This document shows positions 8,990-15,757 of a stretch of DNA of 64,000 nt, piece by piece. A model generated the notes under the pieces. That model was not told where the DNA came from and did no database searches. It worked only from the letters and a program-made list of their open reading frames with translations. Position 1 is the first letter of the stretch. The number at the start of each line of letters is the position of its first letter. Source of the DNA: Chitinophagales bacterium (GTDB lineage: Bacteria > Bacteroidota > Bacteroidia > Chitinophagales > Chitinophagaceae); the NCBI GenBank assembly GCA_021323755.1, contig JAJPKJ010000045.1, forward strand, positions 1 through 64,000. Reading direction: 5' to 3'. The position numbers were made by a program, and so were the translations under genes.

Positions 8990-10195
8990 ATGCCAGGATC
9001 AGAATTGTTCGGCGCAGAAGAGCGCAAAGAAGTCAATGATGTGTTGGAAACAGGCATGCTTTTCAGATACAATCATGACGCACAACGTAAAGGCATCTGG
9101 AAAGCCCGCGAATTTGAAGAAGAAGCAAAAAAGATTACCGGCGCAAAATATGCGCACGCGGTTTGTAACGGTTCGGCAGCAATTGCCACCGCGCTTGCTG
9201 CATCAGGCGTTGGCGCCGGCGATGAAGTGATCGTTCCCCCTTTTACCTTTATTGCCAGCGTGGAGGCAGTTTTATTTGTTGGTGCAATTCCGGTGTTTGC
9301 CGAAATTGATGAAACACTTTGTCTGAGCGCTGACGGAATTGAAAAAGCGATCACGAAAAATACAAAAGCAGTTTGTCTTGTGCACATGTGCGGCGGCATG
9401 GCGGACATGGATCCGATCATGCAGGTCATCAATGACTACAACTTGATTTTAGTAGAAGATGCAGGACAGGCATTTTCTTCATCATACAAAGGAACATCAA
9501 CCGGGCTTTTTGGAACCGCCGGAAGTTATTCATTCGACTTTTTTAAAATTGCCACCGCCGGCGAAGGTGGAATTGTGGTAACCAACGATGAAGAAGTGTA
9601 CAAATTGATCGATACCTATTCAGATCATGGCCATAATCATGTCGGCGCGAAACGCGGAATGGAACAACACCCGATACTCGGATTTAATTATCGCATCAGT
9701 GAATTGCATGCGGCAGTCGCACTCGCACAAACACGCAAAGTGCCCCAGATTCGAGAAATAAATCGTCGGCATAAAAAAGCATTAACGGAAATTCTTTCTC
9801 AAACTGAAGGAATTTCTTTTGCACGAATTGCCGATGCCGATGGTGATTCATCAACTTTCTTAAATATATTATTACCCGATACTGAATCCGCGAAACGCAC
9901 GGTTGATGAATTCAACAAGGCTGGCGTGGCAGGATTTGATTATTGGTTCATGAACATGTATCATTTCATCAATCAATGGGACCATTTAAAAAATTTACAG
10001 ACAGCTGCAAAATTGCCAGTTGAAATATTTGGTTCATCACAGGATTATAAAAATTTGTACTTGCCAAAAACACAGGAAGTGATTGGAAGATTGATTTCAT
10101 TCGGCATACGTTGCACATGGACAGATGAAGAGGTGAAGAACCTGGCGAATAATATTTCACAATGCGTTAAGAATGTTCTGAGCGTTGCGGTCTGA
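8990..10195 (+). CDS. kdnA: 8-amino-3,8-dideoxy-manno-octulosonate transaminase (KdnA), DegT/DnrJ/EryC1/StrS family
   Basis: A 401-residue PLP-dependent sugar aminotransferase of the DegT family. The PLP lysine is K186 in SFDFFKIATAGEGG, and VEDAGQAF at 155-162 holds the aspartate that pairs with the PLP ring nitrogen. In Shewanella, KdnA transfers the amino group of glutamate to the C8 aldehyde of oxidised Kdo. The specific call rests on its position directly before a KdnB-type iron alcohol dehydrogenase and kdsA, in an operon that also has kdsB. By family alone it would be only a sugar aminotransferase; the context makes other NDP-sugar roles less likely. Confidence 0.82.
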   Translation: MPGSELFGAEERKEVNDVLETGMLFRYNHDAQRKGIWKAREFEEEAKKITGAKYAHAVCNGSAAIATALAASGVGAGDEVIVPPFTFIASVEAVLFVGAIPVFAEIDETLCLSADGIEKAITKNTKAVCLVHMCGGMADMDPIMQVINDYNLILVEDAGQAFSSSYKGTSTGLFGTAGSYSFDFFKIATAGEGGIVVTNDEEVYKLIDTYSDHGHNHVGAKRGMEQHPILGFNYRISELHAAVALAQTRKVPQIREINRRHKKALTEILSQTEGISFARIADADGDSSTFLNILLPDTESAKRTVDEFNKAGVAGFDYWFMNMYHFINQWDHLKNLQTAAKLPVEIFGSSQDYKNLYLPKTQEVIGRLISFGIRCTWTDEEVKNLANNISQCVKNVLSVAV

Positions 10196-10286: not shown

Positions 10287-11366
10287 ATGCATAAGAATTT
10301 TAAAAACATCGAAAAAACAGTTTACGGACGTGGGAGTTTTGATATGATGGATGAAATTCTTTCCGCAAAAAGAAAGGAAAATGGCAAATTTTTTCTTTAC
10401 GTAGTCGATCATTATTTTAAAGATAAACCGCTCACAAATCGCATACCTGCAAAGCCTGAAGACGTAATAAAATTTATTGATGTTGATCCCTTCGAACCCA
10501 CCACCGGTCAAATTGATGATCTGCGCGATGAAATATTATCATCAAGGGGTTTGCCTGCCGGCGTTATCGGCATCGGCGGTGGAAGTATTATGGATATTGC
10601 AAAAGCAGTTTCCTTAATGTTCACCAATGAAGGTTCATCCACTTTATACCAGGGTTTGAATCTGATAAAGAAACCGGGAATTTATCATCTTGGCGTCCCA
10701 ACGATTTCCGGAACGGGCGCAGAAGTTTCGATGACAGCCGTATTGACCGGCCCGGTGAAAAAACTCGGGTTAAAATGTGAGTGGACGGTTTTCAACCAGG
10801 TCATTCTTGACCCCGAATTAATTGCCTCCGTTCCGACTGATAAATGGTTCTATACCGGAATGGATACTTATATTCATTGCATCGAATCAGAAAACGGGAT
10901 ATTAAATAACGCCTACAGTCATGCTTATGCGGAGCAGGCATTAAAACTTTGCCAGGAAATTTATCTGGGAGAGAAATCAGGGCAGACCGCGGAAAATGAT
11001 GATAAATTAATGGTCGCATCATTAATGGGCGGCTTGAGTTTAACCTATTCAGAAGTTGGTGTTTGCCATGCATTATCCTATGGTCTTTCAAAGATTCTGG
11101 GAGAAAAACATTGTTATGCAAATTGCCTTGCCTTTCAGCATTTGGAAGATTATTATAAAAATGGCGTGAAAGAATTTGAACAAATGCTTATCAAACACCG
11201 CATTCAGCTGCCAAAAAATATAAGTCAGGGCTGGACCAATGAACAAATAACTGCAATGGCAGAAGTGGCCTATAACCTTCCGCACATGTGGAATCATGCA
11301 GTAGGAACAGATTGGAAAGAAAAAATTTCTATTGAAACTATTAAAGAACTGTACAAACGATTTTAA
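10287..11366 (+). CDS. kdnB: 3-deoxy-manno-octulosonate 8-oxidase (KdnB), iron-containing alcohol dehydrogenase family
   Basis: A 359-residue group III alcohol dehydrogenase. The nucleotide-binding GGGSIMD is at 97-103. Metal ligands are D193 and H197 (GMDTYIHCIE), H261 (VCHALSYGL) and H275 (GEKHCYANC), so the iron site is complete. KdnB oxidises the C8 hydroxyl of Kdo, giving the aldehyde that KdnA aminates. It follows kdnA after 91 bp and precedes kdsA by 2 bp, which supports co-expression. A role on a different polyol sugar cannot be excluded from family membership alone. Confidence 0.82.
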   Translation: MHKNFKNIEKTVYGRGSFDMMDEILSAKRKENGKFFLYVVDHYFKDKPLTNRIPAKPEDVIKFIDVDPFEPTTGQIDDLRDEILSSRGLPAGVIGIGGGSIMDIAKAVSLMFTNEGSSTLYQGLNLIKKPGIYHLGVPTISGTGAEVSMTAVLTGPVKKLGLKCEWTVFNQVILDPELIASVPTDKWFYTGMDTYIHCIESENGILNNAYSHAYAEQALKLCQEIYLGEKSGQTAENDDKLMVASLMGGLSLTYSEVGVCHALSYGLSKILGEKHCYANCLAFQHLEDYYKNGVKEFEQMLIKHRIQLPKNISQGWTNEQITAMAEVAYNLPHMWNHAVGTDWKEKISIETIKELYKRF

Positions 11367-11368
11367 TT

Positions 11369-12202
11369 ATGAGCAAGAAAAAAATAATGGTTGGAAATAT
11401 TGAATGTGGAGCCGATGAACTCTTTATTATTTCCGGGCCTTGCGTCATTGAAGAAGAAACGATCATGATGAAGACCGCAGAGAAATTAAAAGAAGTCAGC
11501 GAGCGGTTACACATCCCCGTTATATACAAATCATCTTTTTCAAAAGACAATAGAAGCAGCTTAAAATATTATAACGGGCCGGGATTGGAAAAAGGAATAA
11601 AAATGCTCGCAAAAGTGAAAGAGCAATTTGGTTTTCCGGTCTTAACGGATATTCATTATCCCGACCAGGCTGCCCCCGCCGGAGAAGTTTGTGATGTGCT
11701 GCAAATTCCTGCCTATTTGTGCATGCAAACAGGATTGATGGTCGCCGCTGCAAAAACTGGAAGAGTGATCAATATTAAACACGGGCAATTTCTCGCGCCC
11801 GATAATATGAAACATCCTGTTGGCAAATGCGTGGAAGCTGGTAATGATAAAATCATTTTGACCGAACGCGGATATACGATGGGTTATAATGACCTGGTTG
11901 TTGACCCGCGCAGTTTTTATCACCTGAATCAATTGGGCTATCCGGTTGTCTTTGACATCACCCATTCGATCCGTAAATATGGAATTCCAAGTGCAGATTC
12001 CAAAGGCGGTGCAAGAGAGTTTTTGCCCGTATTAAGTCGGGCAGGTGTTGCTTCCGGTGTTGATGGTGTATTTATAGAAACGCACCCCGATCCGGAAAAA
12101 GCATTATGCGATGCAGCAAGTCAATTATGTGTTTATGACCTGGAAGAATTCCTGAAACCGATTTTAGAACTACATTCGATAGAAGTAAAATACACGAAGT
12201 AA
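11369..12202 (+). CDS. kdsA: 3-deoxy-8-phosphooctulonate synthase (KdsA), metal-dependent type, diverged
   Basis: A 277-residue member of the KdsA/DAHP synthase family, which condenses phosphoenolpyruvate with arabinose 5-phosphate. Cys25 in SGPCVIEE marks the metal-dependent class (Asn in E. coli). The other ligands are seen in DITHSI, IETHPDPE and the aspartate of LCDAASQ. The phosphate-binding KDNRSS motif is kept. Two positions differ from the E. coli and Aquifex sequences as I remember them: ARQTD/CRQTD is CMQTG here (about residues 116-120), and VKK before the QF motif is IKH. The changed Arg is one I recall as an acceptor-phosphate contact. See findings. Confidence 0.88.
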   Translation: MSKKKIMVGNIECGADELFIISGPCVIEEETIMMKTAEKLKEVSERLHIPVIYKSSFSKDNRSSLKYYNGPGLEKGIKMLAKVKEQFGFPVLTDIHYPDQAAPAGEVCDVLQIPAYLCMQTGLMVAAAKTGRVINIKHGQFLAPDNMKHPVGKCVEAGNDKIILTERGYTMGYNDLVVDPRSFYHLNQLGYPVVFDITHSIRKYGIPSADSKGGAREFLPVLSRAGVASGVDGVFIETHPDPEKALCDAASQLCVYDLEEFLKPILELHSIEVKYTK

Positions 12203-12250: not shown

Positions 12251-13261
12251 ATGGAACTATATCTCGACTCAGCCAACCTCAAAGAAATCGAAGAAGGATT
12301 TAAACTTGGCTTTCTTGATGGCTTAACTACCACGCCAACTTTTATGCAACGTGAAGGCATAACCGATATTGATGGAACAATTGTAAAACTTTCGAAAATA
12401 GTGCCTGTGCTCCAGATCGAAGCATTGGGAAATACTGCCGAGGAAGTTTTAAAGGAAGCGCACCGCCAGCTGGATTTAGGATTGGACCCCAAGAAAACGG
12501 TTTTCAAATTGCCTGTTTCCCTGGAAGCGGTTCGGGCCTGCCATTTGTTACGCAAAGAAGGATTACTCGTAAATATTCATCTTGTTTATACCTTACAACA
12601 GGCATATATGGCAATGCATGCAGGCGCCAATTATGTTTGCCCGCTTGTTGGTCGTTTGCAGGATCAGGGGCACGACGCACTTGCACTAATTGAGCAGTGC
12701 GTTAAGGCGGTTGATCATTACCGTTATGATACCAAAGTGATGTTCAGTTCGGTTCGCCACAATGAGCATGTTCGCAATGCCATCAATATCGGTGTTCACA
12801 CCATTACCATTCCCCTTAAAGTATTGAAATCGCTTACGGATAATAATTTCACCACCATTGGCACTGAACAATTTTTGCGCGATACAAGATTAATGACCGT
12901 TCGGGTAAAAGAAGCCATGAACTCCGTGAATCCTATTGTTGATGCAGCCACAGATCTGAAACATGCTATTGTGAAAATGACCGAATTTGGCTTTGGCGCC
13001 GTTACTGTTGTCAATAATGGAACGATCAAAGGTGTTTTTACGGACGGTGACCTAAGGAGATTATTACAGCAGGATGGCGAACACATTTTAAATAAAAAAC
13101 TGGGTGATCTTTCTTATAAATCACCGATCAGCATTGATGCCAATGCATTATTGAATGATGCAGCCGGTCTATTCAAAAAAACAAATGTTGACACGATATT
13201 GGTAACAGAAGATGACAAGCCGGTAGGCATGCTCGACATTCAGGATTTGAAAAATGACTAA
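12251..13261 (+). CDS. Transaldolase-family aldolase fused to a KdsD-type CBS pair
   Basis: A 336-residue two-part protein. Residues 1-215 match the fructose-6-phosphate aldolase / TalC branch of transaldolases, with the catalytic set D6, E57 and Schiff-base K86 (VFKLP). The nearly invariant TTNPS motif is TTTPT here (Asn28 to Thr), and the FSA Tyr131 position is Leu. Residues 218-336 are two CBS motifs, the first ending in GVFTDGDLRR, which closely resembles the CBS pair of arabinose-5-phosphate isomerase KdsD. It sits between kdsA and a KdsC-like gene, and no SIS-domain KdsD is present in the window. I infer that it supplies the KdsA acceptor under CBS-mediated feedback; the reaction is unproven. 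Confidence 0.75.
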   Translation: MELYLDSANLKEIEEGFKLGFLDGLTTTPTFMQREGITDIDGTIVKLSKIVPVLQIEALGNTAEEVLKEAHRQLDLGLDPKKTVFKLPVSLEAVRACHLLRKEGLLVNIHLVYTLQQAYMAMHAGANYVCPLVGRLQDQGHDALALIEQCVKAVDHYRYDTKVMFSSVRHNEHVRNAINIGVHTITIPLKVLKSLTDNNFTTIGTEQFLRDTRLMTVRVKEAMNSVNPIVDAATDLKHAIVKMTEFGFGAVTVVNNGTIKGVFTDGDLRRLLQQDGEHILNKKLGDLSYKSPISIDANALLNDAAGLFKKTNVDTILVTEDDKPVGMLDIQDLKND

Positions 13262-13303: not shown

Positions 13304-14014
13304 ATGACCGTTAGTTTTAACGAAATCAAATCTTTGTTTACCGGAAGGTTTTTAACTGACCCGGAAATTCTTCAGAAAAAACTCTCCTATATCCGCGCTT
13401 TTGTATTTGACTGGGATGGCGTTTTCAACAATGGCACTAAAAATGAAAATGGATCAAGCGCCTTCAGTGAAGTGGATGCCATGGGCACCAACCTGTTGCG
13501 TTTCAATCATTACATTCTTTCCAGGAACAATTTGTTCACCGCCATCATCTCCGGAGAAAAAAATCAACTTGCTTTTATTTTTGCAAAACGAGAACATTTC
13601 AACGAGGTGTATTATAAGATCAGGAATAAAGCAGAAGCGCTGAATCATCTGTGCAAACTCAATAATCTGCATTCGCACGAAGTAGCATTTGTTTTCGATG
13701 ATGTACTTGATTTTTCTGCGGCAAAGATTGCAGGTGCAAGGATCATGGTAGGAAGAAGATCCAATCCGTTATTGACCGATTTTGCCATTAATAATAATCT
13801 CGTTGATTATATCAGTTCGACTGATGGCGGAAATCATGCGGTAAGAGAAGCTGTTGAGTTGGTGATGGCCTTGAGTGGAAAATATGATGAAACCCTTAGG
13901 CAAAGGATGGATTTCAGCGACGATTATAAACAGTACTGGGAATTACGCAATTCAGTGGAAACCCAATTTTATACAACTGACCAAAAGGCAATCATTCAAC
14001 AAACCCCACAATGA
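13304..14014 (+). CDS. KdsC-like HAD phosphatase
   Basis: A 236-residue HAD-superfamily protein without cap domain. Motif I is FDWDGVF (both Asp, about residues 31-37), motif II the serine of IISGEK, motif III the lysine of RNKAEAL, and motif IV VFDDVLD. The GGNHAVREAVEL segment matches the C-terminal GGxGAVRE region of KdsC. KdsC removes the phosphate from Kdo 8-phosphate before oxidation or activation. About 45 extra residues at the C-terminus and a 25-residue N-terminal extension are not in E. coli KdsC. The gene overlaps kdsB by 4 bp. The precise substrate is inferred from context. Confidence 0.78.
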   Translation: MTVSFNEIKSLFTGRFLTDPEILQKKLSYIRAFVFDWDGVFNNGTKNENGSSAFSEVDAMGTNLLRFNHYILSRNNLFTAIISGEKNQLAFIFAKREHFNEVYYKIRNKAEALNHLCKLNNLHSHEVAFVFDDVLDFSAAKIAGARIMVGRRSNPLLTDFAINNNLVDYISSTDGGNHAVREAVELVMALSGKYDETLRQRMDFSDDYKQYWELRNSVETQFYTTDQKAIIQQTPQ

Positions 14015-14760
14015 TTATTGGAATCATTCCTGCTCGATTTGCCTCAACCCGTTTTCCCGGGAAACCGTTGATTGACATCAACGGAAAGTCAATGATACAG
14101 CGGGTATACGAGCAATCTGCAAAATCAAGATCATTAAATAGGATAATCGTTGCAACGGAGGATAAGCAAATTGCTGATCACGTAATTGGTTTTGGTGGTG
14201 AGGCGGTAATGACCGGCGAACATCATGCAAGTGGCACCGACAGGTGTTTTGAAGCTTTGGGAAAACTAAAGGAATCCTATCAATATATCATCAACATCCA
14301 GGGCGACGAGCCCTTTATTGAACCTGAGCAAATTGATGAACTGGCAGAAGCATTGAAAAATGGGGATATTGAAATTGCAACACAAATGATCGCCGTAAAA
14401 AATGAATCAGAATTATTTGATGCCGGCGAAGCAAAAATTATATTGAATAAAAACAATGAAGCAATATATTTCAGCCGGGCAGCAATTCCTTATTTGCGAA
14501 ATGTCGATCAAAAGGAATGGCATACCCATCACCTCTATTACCGGCAGGTCGGCATGTACGCATACCGAAACGATATTCTGAAGAAAATCACACAGCTTCC
14601 TGTATCGTCGCTGGAAAAAGCGGAATCATTAGAGCAATTGCGCTGGTTGCAAAACGGATTTAAAATAAAATGCGTTCTTACAGAATACGAGAGTCATTGT
14701 GTCGATGTGCCGGAAGATGTTGAGCGGATATTGAAATTGAAAAAAGATATTCAGCCTTGA
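14011..14760 (+). CDS. kdsB: 3-deoxy-manno-octulosonate cytidylyltransferase (KdsB)
   Basis: A 249-residue CMP-Kdo synthetase. The CTP-binding PARFASTRFPGKPL is at residues 7-20, HHASGTDRCFEA binds the metal and sugar, and NIQGDEPFIEPEQI follows. It activates Kdo, or here probably Kdo8N, as the CMP sugar for transfer to lipid A. In Shewanella the KdsB next to kdnAB prefers the 8-amino sugar; whether this one does cannot be read from sequence. Its ATG lies inside the end of the phosphatase gene, so the two are translationally coupled. Confidence 0.93.
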   Translation: MIIGIIPARFASTRFPGKPLIDINGKSMIQRVYEQSAKSRSLNRIIVATEDKQIADHVIGFGGEAVMTGEHHASGTDRCFEALGKLKESYQYIINIQGDEPFIEPEQIDELAEALKNGDIEIATQMIAVKNESELFDAGEAKIILNKNNEAIYFSRAAIPYLRNVDQKEWHTHHLYYRQVGMYAYRNDILKKITQLPVSSLEKAESLEQLRWLQNGFKIKCVLTEYESHCVDVPEDVERILKLKKDIQP

Positions 14761-14812
14761 GTATGTCCTTTTCGTGAAAGGTATTGTCCAAAAAAAAATC
14801 GTTCGTCTCCAT

Positions 14813-15757
14813 ATGGCAAAAGAAAAAATTTTAGTGATCGGCGCTTCCGGCCAAATAGGCGTCGAGCTTACACTTGCGTTAAGGAAAATTTATGGCAATG
14901 CAAATGTTGTAGCCTCCGACCTGCGAGAAGAAAATGAATTGCTGAAAGGAACCGGTCCTTATGTTTCACTCGATGTAATGAATAAAGAGATGCTGCACGT
15001 GCAGGTGATCCGTCAGAACATTACACAGATCTATTTATTGGCTGCGATCCTTTCGGCGACAGGAGAAAAAAATCCGGGACTTGCCTGGCATTTGAATATG
15101 CAGGGATTATTGAATGTGCTTGATATCGCACGAGAAGAAAAATTGCAAAAAGTTTATTGGCCAAGCAGCATTGCCGTTTTCGGTCCCACTTCTCCAAAAC
15201 AAAATTGTCCGCAACAAACGATCATTGAACCGATCACGGTCTATGGCATCAGTAAATATGCCGGTGAATTCTGGTGCAATTATTTTCACCAGCGTTTTGG
15301 AGTTGATGTCCGCAGCATCCGATATCCGGGATTGATCAGTTATAAATCAGCGCCGGGCGGGGGAACAACAGATTATGCAATTGAAATTTTTCATGAAGCG
15401 CTTGAACACGAAAAATATAAATGCTTTTTGAAAGAAGATACCTACTTGCCGATGATGTATATGCCCGACGCCATACGCGCGACCATCGAATTGATGGAAG
15501 CGCCGGCAGAGAAAATTTCCATTCACACCTCATATAATGTTGCCGCCATAACCTTTTCGCCGAAAGAAATTGCAAGTGAAATCAAAAAACACATTCCCGG
15601 TTTTGAAATAAATTTTGCTCCAGATTATCGCCAGGCAATCGCCAACAGTTGGCCACAAAGCATTGACGATACGGTAGCCAGAAATGATTGGGGATGGAAA
15701 CATGAATATGACCTCAGCAGGATGACAGCCGATATGCTACAGAACCTTCAGCCTTGA
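14813..15757 (+). CDS. tdh: L-threonine 3-dehydrogenase, short-chain (SDR) type
   Basis: A 314-residue extended short-chain dehydrogenase. The NAD-binding GASGQIG lies close to the N-terminus, and the catalytic pair is YGISK. The APGGGTTDYAIEIFHEAL and LPMMYMPDAIRATIELMEAP segments are what I recall from the threonine dehydrogenase of Flavobacterium frigidimaris and its animal homologues, not from UDP-galactose epimerases. It oxidises threonine to 2-amino-3-ketobutyrate with NAD. The ATG at 14813 is preferred over a GTG at 14774 because it starts just before the first strand of the fold. It follows kdsB but is probably unrelated in function. Confidence 0.85.
   Translation: MAKEKILVIGASGQIGVELTLALRKIYGNANVVASDLREENELLKGTGPYVSLDVMNKEMLHVQVIRQNITQIYLLAAILSATGEKNPGLAWHLNMQGLLNVLDIAREEKLQKVYWPSSIAVFGPTSPKQNCPQQTIIEPITVYGISKYAGEFWCNYFHQRFGVDVRSIRYPGLISYKSAPGGGTTDYAIEIFHEALEHEKYKCFLKEDTYLPMMYMPDAIRATIELMEAPAEKISIHTSYNVAAITFSPKEIASEIKKHIPGFEINFAPDYRQAIANSWPQSIDDTVARNDWGWKHEYDLSRMTADMLQNLQP

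Follow-up and report, generated by a model that had tools for sequence, protein, structure and literature searches.

A transaldolase–CBS fusion predicted to take the place of the arabinose 5-phosphate isomerase KdsD in Chitinophagaceae-like Bacteroidota

The supply of arabinose 5-phosphate (A5P) is the first step toward 3-deoxy-D-manno-octulosonate (Kdo), a core sugar of lipopolysaccharide, and the A5P-forming enzymes described so far are, to our knowledge, all SIS-domain isomerases with or without a CBS pair. A single-domain SIS arabinose-5-phosphate isomerase from Bacteroides represents another variant of this step within the Bacteroidota. Here the analysis concerns a 336-residue open reading frame (12251-13261, forward strand, the same coordinates as in an earlier sequence-only reading) in a 64,000-nucleotide stretch, hereafter the window, covering positions 1-64,000 of contig JAJPKJ010000045.1 from a Chitinophagales bacterium (assembly GCA_021323755.1; 4.08 Mb, 99.81% complete). 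The encoded protein joins a transaldolase-type barrel to a CBS pair (hereafter the fusion) and lies between kdsA and the gene of a KdsC-like HAD phosphatase. From comparative sequence evidence, it very probably takes the place of KdsD, whatever its chemistry; this displacement is supported by the absence of KdsD where the fusion occurs, the retention of kdsA, the position in the operon and the presence of the same type of KdsA in a genome (G249) that carries KdsD and lacks the fusion. The favoured reading, which we consider probable, is a KdsD replacement using glycolaldehyde-unit chemistry. A search of open-licence articles in PMC found no account of a transaldolase–CBS protein in Kdo synthesis.

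The Pfam family TAL_FSA (PF00923) matched residues 3-205 of the fusion (E 1.4e-32, 113.7 bits against a cut-off of 27), with two CBS stretches behind it. The NCBIfam model TIGR00875 (fsa/talC) covered residues 1-212 with 162.3 bits, under its cut-off of 245.95, and TIGR00393 (KpsF/GutQ) covered residues 215-328, equivalent to model positions 153-267, with about 61 bits against a cut-off of 203.7. The latter match was confined to the CBS part, and the SIS catalytic domain of KdsD therefore has no counterpart in the fusion. An AlphaFold model built from 40 sequences (mean pLDDT 87.2; pTM 0.58, with uncertain placement of the domains relative to each other) matched the TalC transaldolases 1vpx, 3s0c and 3r8r. 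By fold, the fusion thus belongs to the transaldolase family; its score and its site residues set it apart from the described TalC/FSA equivalog, and in its role it would be an analogue of KdsD. Its parts are as follows.

12251..13261, forward strand: transaldolase–CBS fusion, predicted KdsD replacement (A5P-forming); Pfam, NCBIfam, alignment and AlphaFold model
12251..12886, forward strand: TAL/FSA (beta-alpha)8 barrel, residues 1-212; TIGR00875, and an AlphaFold model that matches transaldolases
12332..12334, forward strand: Thr28 (Asn in TalC, FsaA and TalB), donor-site change; 84/84 fusions
12506-12508, forward strand: K86, Schiff-base position; alignment
12578..12580, forward strand: His110 (Thr in TalC, FsaA and TalB), active-site change; 84/84 fusions
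12638..12646, forward strand: Cys130 and Leu132 (Ser and Phe in TalC and TalB, Ala and Tyr in FsaA), donor-site changes; 84/84 fusions
12893..13252, forward strand: KdsD-like CBS pair, residues 215-334, with a TDGDLRR motif; TIGR00393 and PDB matches

The host genome, in which all candidates were scored and kdsA is present, yielded no SIS-CBS KdsD. None of its proteins exceeded the TIGR00393 cut-off, the matches being limited to CBS stretches and to weak SIS stretches in MurQ-like and GlmS-like proteins. Three SIS proteins were present in all, resembling GlmS (on the basis of a length of 614 residues and two SIS stretches), MurQ and GmhA, the last two being assignments that we make from motifs as we know them and from gene neighbours. 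A hidden KdsD or a single-domain SIS isomerase was thus sought among these proteins and not found. The GmhA-like protein is encoded at C8 (L004 124-3102) of the host genome, clustered with a kinase of the GHMP type, a sugar nucleotidyltransferase and a HAD protein, which together resemble a GDP-heptose pathway.

The distribution of the two genes was then compared across genomes. All candidates were scored in the host genome and in a set of 50 fusion genomes; in two broader samples, one of the phylum and one of the family, scoring covered the 6-8 highest-ranked candidates that a first pass gave for each genome. Among the 296 genomes of the phylum sample (thresholds of E <= 1e-40 for kdsA and E <= 1e-20 for KdsD), kdsA was found in 219, KdsD in 211 (208 over cut-off) and a full-length fusion in five. 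Within the same class (73 genomes, 72 with kdsA), 67 genomes had KdsD only, five the fusion only, and none had both or neither (Fisher test 7e-8; this test and the next ignore phylogeny). The family sample of 344 genomes held the fusion in 39, spread over 15 of 92 genera, and KdsD in 300; 36 genomes were fusion-only, three had both genes, 297 were KdsD-only and eight had neither, so that KdsD was missing in 36/39 fusion genomes compared with 8/305 of the others (Fisher test 1.8e-37). Eight genera contained fusion-only as well as KdsD-only species, in a within-genus table of ten genera to one of which five of the eight genomes with neither gene could belong. The host's own genus was represented by one fusion-only genome (the host), one with both genes and eight with KdsD only, a pattern as expected for displacement by way of a dual state.

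The 50 fusion genomes are a non-random pick from the 80 loci that were retained out of 491, and overlap with the family sample (one genome with both genes occurs in each; G451 and L048 share an identical fusion gene, on contigs of equal length). Forty-six of them lacked KdsD, while kdsA was matched in 49, in 48 of these over cut-off. The fusion is therefore found where KdsD is absent and kdsA is kept, as would be the case for a source of A5P. The sequence-only reading had seen no SIS-domain KdsD at the locus, which now extends to a near-complete genome, and had proposed to test whether the fusion occurs with kdsA and is anti-correlated with KdsD, which the phylum and family samples and the 50-genome set bear out. 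It had also named constant co-occurrence with KdsD as an outcome that would speak against it; no such constancy was seen, and a minority of genomes (3/39 and 4/50) do carry both genes. Its central proposal, that the SIS isomerase was swapped for an aldolase-type enzyme, is supported by the genome-wide absence, the anti-correlation and the predicted transaldolase fold.

The active site was examined in an alignment of 84 fusions with E. coli TalB and FsaA and with TalC from 25 of 26 Bacteroidota loci (L031 being left out). The fusions comprise 81 distinct sequences (L043/L102, L049/L050 and L079/L080 are identical pairs) and come mostly from the best 80 matches, so that close relatives dominate. 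D6, E57, K86, N108, R135, S167 and R169 were kept in 84/84 fusions. At four further positions all 84 fusions had T28, H110, C130 and L132, where all 25 TalC sequences had N, T, S and F, respectively, and the TTNPS donor motif was lost in every fusion. In TalB, the C1 hydroxyl of dihydroxyacetone is presumably contacted by Asn35 and Ser176, and the C3 hydroxyl by Asp17 and Asn154; Thr156 is, we assume, the residue that positions the catalytic water. On this basis, the part of the site that takes up the additional hydroxymethyl group of dihydroxyacetone seems to have been rebuilt, with the enamine and phosphate sites left intact. Such a site would suit the joining of a two-carbon donor to a triose-phosphate acceptor, which gives an aldopentose 5-phosphate. 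According to the accessible part of PMC3962226, the phosphate site of TalB F178Y consists of two Arg and one Ser, and the S176/A129 position together with F178 sets donor preference and reaction type.

Several features had been read from the sequence beforehand: a TalC/FSA-type barrel joined to a CBS pair, which the Pfam and NCBIfam domain matches corroborate; D6, E57, K86, Thr28 and a Leu at the FSA Tyr131 position (Leu132), which the alignment to E. coli FsaA and TalB upheld; a KdsD-type GVFTDGDLRR motif in the CBS pair, of which TDGDLRR proved common to 13 of 14 KdsDs compared; and a setting of kdsA, a kdsC-like gene and kdsB, with which searches of the neighbours against Pfam and NCBIfam agreed. 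The structure prediction that was then proposed returned a transaldolase fold.

In the favoured reading, the fusion would feed A5P to KdsA instead of a SIS-CBS KdsD, a case of non-homologous displacement. Lys86 would form a Schiff base with the C1 of an aldehyde and not, as in the case of dihydroxyacetone, with C2; the remodelled donor pocket (T28, H110, C130 and L132) would hold the two-carbon glycolaldehyde enamine, and the retained phosphate site (R135, S167 and R169) would hold glyceraldehyde 3-phosphate (GAP), so that formation of the C-C bond with the stereochemistry of the transaldolase family would yield A5P. The glycolaldehyde unit could come from free glycolaldehyde, or from the cleavage of ribose 5-phosphate (R5P), the fragments being joined again within one active site, that is, a C2 epimerisation by retro-aldol and aldol steps. 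The route from glycolaldehyde and GAP is chemically well founded: as described in the accessible text of two reports (PMC6298115, PMC9947464), FsaA forms A5P from these substrates, and the latter (PMC9947464) adds that engineered E. coli use FsaA as an A5P aldolase, that the FsaA product is A5P only and that TalB F178Y yields both A5P and R5P. One site can therefore in principle connect R5P and A5P. Where enough free glycolaldehyde for bulk Kdo synthesis would come from is not clear, and for this reason epimerisation of R5P to A5P is considered no less likely than the open aldol reaction. In its full form, the fusion would be a new type of ribose-5-phosphate 2-epimerase in which Lys86 acts on C1 of R5P, the C2-C3 bond is broken and remade with the opposite configuration at C2, and the CBS pair places A5P formation under the control of a signal from further down the pathway, Kdo or a nucleotide; this specific version is put forward tentatively, as a possibility that may well prove wrong.

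Regarding the CBS pair, the KdsD CBS structures led a PDB sequence search (4o9k, 8.3e-11, with 3fna and 3k2v), the next CBS protein following at 6.9e-5. Among the CBS proteins of the host genome, the fusion gave the highest TIGR00393 score of those compared (61.6 bits, against 44.9 for a GuaB-like protein and 42.5 for a 171-residue protein), and TDGDLRR occurred in none of the nine other CBS-protein loci; the one KdsD without it is that of G249. Among the 84 fusions, 48 had the exact GVFTDGDLRR and 54 TDGDLRR, with TDGDIRR in most of the others listed. In a tree, the fusion CBS pairs grouped with those of KdsDs, with a support of only 86/71 and on long branches. Derivation of the CBS pair from KdsD is thus favoured by score and motif, with weak support from the tree, and the fusion may have arisen by exchange of the catalytic domain while the CBS module behind it was retained. 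The pair would regulate the activity of the fusion.

The fusion gene is part of a run of six genes on one strand, in the order kdnA-like, kdnB-like, kdsA, fusion, KdsC-like HAD and kdsB, separated by gaps of 91, 2, 48 and 42 bp and, between the HAD gene and kdsB, by a 4-base overlap. The other members of the run are listed below; kdnA and kdnB are names that we assign on our own understanding, the families matched being a DegT aminotransferase and an Fe-ADH.

8990..10195, forward strand: kdnA-like DegT/DnrJ aminotransferase, predicted 8-amino-Kdo step; Pfam DegT_DnrJ_EryC1, E 1.6e-77
10287..11366, forward strand: kdnB-like Fe-dependent alcohol dehydrogenase, predicted Kdo 8-oxidase; Pfam Fe-ADH, E 7.5e-20
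11369..12202, forward strand: kdsA, 3-deoxy-8-phosphooctulonate synthase, the consumer of A5P; TIGR01362 334.6 bits (cut-off 314), NF003543 350.6 (cut-off 242)
13304..14014, forward strand: KdsC-like HAD phosphatase, 236 residues, DWDG motif; KdsC matches below cut-off, AlphaFold model and PDB matches
14011..14760, forward strand: kdsB, cytidylyltransferase of the CMP-Kdo synthetase type; TIGR00466 224.1 bits (cut-off 155.2)

The KdsC-like HAD protein had no Pfam match and scored under both NCBIfam KdsC cut-offs (NF007019, 52.5 against 208; TIGR01670, 39.1 against 106.95). The 15 best PDB matches of its AlphaFold model (pLDDT 95.5) in Foldseek were all YrbI/KdsC phosphatases, and in an alignment of 30 sequences the catalytic residues were conserved, with DxD in all 29 that reach that stretch and K109, D132 and D133 in all 30. 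It is possibly a specialised Kdo 8-phosphate phosphatase family for which there is no curated model. Just 3' of kdsB (14774-15757) lies a gene for an NAD-dependent epimerase/dehydratase whose best match, below cut-off, was D-erythronate dehydrogenase; it was seen near the fusion in 9/84 loci.

In 84 fusion loci of varying length, the HAD gene accompanied the fusion in 64, kdsB did so in 61 and kdsA in 59; for kdnA and for kdnB the count was 49. A complete operon of the Bacteroidota type also occurs in L062, titled as a metagenome-assembled genome (MAG) of Azovibrio restrictus, by name a betaproteobacterium, and probably a mislabelled or contaminated bin. The sequence-only reading had also put forward co-occurrence with kdnAB for testing, and on this point it needs correction: of 22 kdnB-positive genomes in the phylum sample, four had the fusion and 18 had KdsD without it, and fusion genome G292 gave no kdnB match at E <= 1e-50. 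These genomes rule out kdnAB as the driver; as the fusion does not track kdnAB, the link is to the loss of KdsD.

The KdsA of the window (11369-12202) is of a divergent type, with KDNRS instead of KANR[TS]. KDNRS was found in 56 of the 59 kdsA genes near fusions, the pattern giving no match in the other three. G249 has KDNRS as well, and the eight other reference kdsA genes have KANR. Genome G249 carries the equivalent genes (L153 4144-9103), namely kdnA (69%), kdnB (72%), kdsA (75.6% identical), HAD and kdsB, with no fusion between kdsA and HAD, and encodes KdsD elsewhere. Because a KDNRS-type KdsA is there paired with KdsD and without the fusion, the divergent type appears to use A5P, and a different KdsA substrate is made unlikely by this one genome, in which the KDNRS-type gene is the sole kdsA match.

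Several observations weigh against KdsD replacement by glycolaldehyde-unit chemistry. A source of bulk free glycolaldehyde is unclear, which weakens its simplest form, the open aldol reaction, and His110 sits at the position of the Thr that we take to place the catalytic water of transaldolases, so that the aldol chemistry itself may have changed. As to the comparative evidence, kdsA was not seen beside the fusion in 25/84 loci, some of which are cut by contig ends, and neither gene was found in four kdsA-positive genomes of the phylum sample (G023, G200, G268 and G284) or in 8/344 genomes of the family sample. Both genes were present in 3/39 fusion genomes of the family sample (G451, G414 and G541) and in four of the set of 50, where the four KdsDs look intact and retain the residues that we assume to be catalytic. 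A second, higher-scoring kdsA without KdsD was found in three of the 50 fusion genomes (G310, G312 and G320).

Three of the four genomes of that set with both genes (those of L083, L088 and L101) carry KdsDs (at L155-L157) that are 71-76% identical to one another, which suggests a real dual-state lineage, although contamination of the MAGs may also account for genomes with both genes; in these, the fusion is followed by the HAD gene and kdsB, and kdsA was not seen nearby. In G310, G312 and G320 (L061, L063 and L071), the second kdsA scores like the canonical type and no HAD gene was seen between the fusion and kdsB; bin contamination or a second pathway is possible.

Among the other explanations, the barrel might be a true isomerase that converts ribulose 5-phosphate to A5P by enediol or enaminol proton transfer, aldolase chemistry having been lost and His110 serving as a new acid/base. 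The comparative evidence for replacement of KdsD fits this equally well, ribulose 5-phosphate is KdsD's own substrate so that no new metabolite is required, and His110 occurs in every one of the 84 fusions where all 25 TalC sequences have Thr. However, K86, D6, E57 and N108, needless in a pure isomerase, are likewise kept in 84/84, and an imine at C2 of the ketose would offer no direct path to a free aldose; an isomerase is accordingly rated unlikely. An octulose-phosphate transaldolase giving A5P by an octulose route has a stereochemistry that fits by our own derivation, and the accessible part of PMC5854111 describes the formation of octulose phosphates by transketolase and transaldolase in vitro and a proposed L-type pentose pathway with A5P. 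Against this, the positions that set dihydroxyacetone preference and reaction type (S176 and F178, in the portion of PMC3962226 available) are altered in all 84 fusions, which leaves this route only a slight chance.

It is also improbable, if marginally conceivable, that the fusion serves the 8-amino-Kdo (kdnAB) branch or regulates the operon and makes no A5P, the loss of KdsD being compensated otherwise. Such a role would suit the 49/84 loci in which kdnA and kdnB were seen near the fusion and the three of 39 family genomes that have KdsD in addition to the fusion, in all of which kdsA, kdnB and the HAD gene adjoin it; it agrees poorly with the 18 of 22 kdnB-positive genomes that have KdsD and no fusion, with G292, with the retention of kdsA in 49/50 fusion genomes, with the lack of another SIS candidate in the host genome and with the eight genera in which fusion species without KdsD stand beside sister species bearing it. 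Finally, a housekeeping transaldolase that happens to bear a CBS pair would account for the conserved barrel and catalytic lysine and is nevertheless very hard to credit: the host genome holds a separate canonical TalC (C64; 192.1 bits compared with 112.9 for the fusion), TTNPS is lost and four site positions are changed in 84/84 fusions, the TIGR00875 score is below cut-off and the gene lies in an operon with kdsA and kdsB. The canonical TalC and the active-site changes are together the grounds for rejecting an ordinary housekeeping enzyme.

Taken with the replacement of KdsD by glycolaldehyde-unit chemistry, many Chitinophagaceae-like bacteria appear to have swapped their A5P isomerase for an unrelated transaldolase-type enzyme with a similar regulatory domain, the exchange with KdsD apparently having taken place in several genera. 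If so, the laboratory-built synthetic A5P-aldolase pathway would have a natural counterpart, the missing kdsD genes of many Bacteroidota would be explained, new chemistry would be added to an envelope pathway, and a possibly regulated biocatalyst for A5P would become available. Should the epimerase version be correct, the fusion would be a natural epimerase that acts by retro-aldol steps through a Schiff base, and Kdo synthesis would have a second entry point that evolved independently.

Compared with known systems, the fusion resembles KdsD/GutQ (KpsF, TIGR00393) in its C-terminal CBS pair with a TDGDLRR-type motif, its role beside kdsA and its predicted A5P product, and KdsD is usually present where the fusion is absent; the two differ in that KdsD has a SIS domain and acts by enediol isomerisation, whereas the fusion has a transaldolase-type barrel and predicted Schiff-base C-C chemistry. 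The Bacteroides single-domain isomerase is still a SIS protein that has lost the CBS pair, whereas in the fusion it is the catalytic domain that is swapped. AraD, the L-ribulose-5-phosphate 4-epimerase, would presumably be a precedent for epimerisation by retro-aldol and aldol steps, although we take it to be a metal-dependent enzyme of class II fold acting on a different carbon. The closest solved structures are those of the TalC transaldolases of B. subtilis (3r8r), T. maritima (1vpx) and T. acidophilum (3s0c), with which the fusion shares the phosphate site and K86, but their donor-site Asn, Thr, Ser and Phe are replaced by Thr28, His110, Cys130 and Leu132, and a CBS pair is added. E. coli FsaA shares the barrel fold, Asp6 and the Schiff-base lysine and, in the accessible text of PMC6298115 and PMC9947464, the predicted reaction from glycolaldehyde and GAP to A5P; unlike the fusion, it has no CBS pair and lies outside a Kdo operon, and its N28, Q59, L107, T109, A129 and Y131 correspond to T28, E57, N108, H110, C130 and L132 of the fusion.

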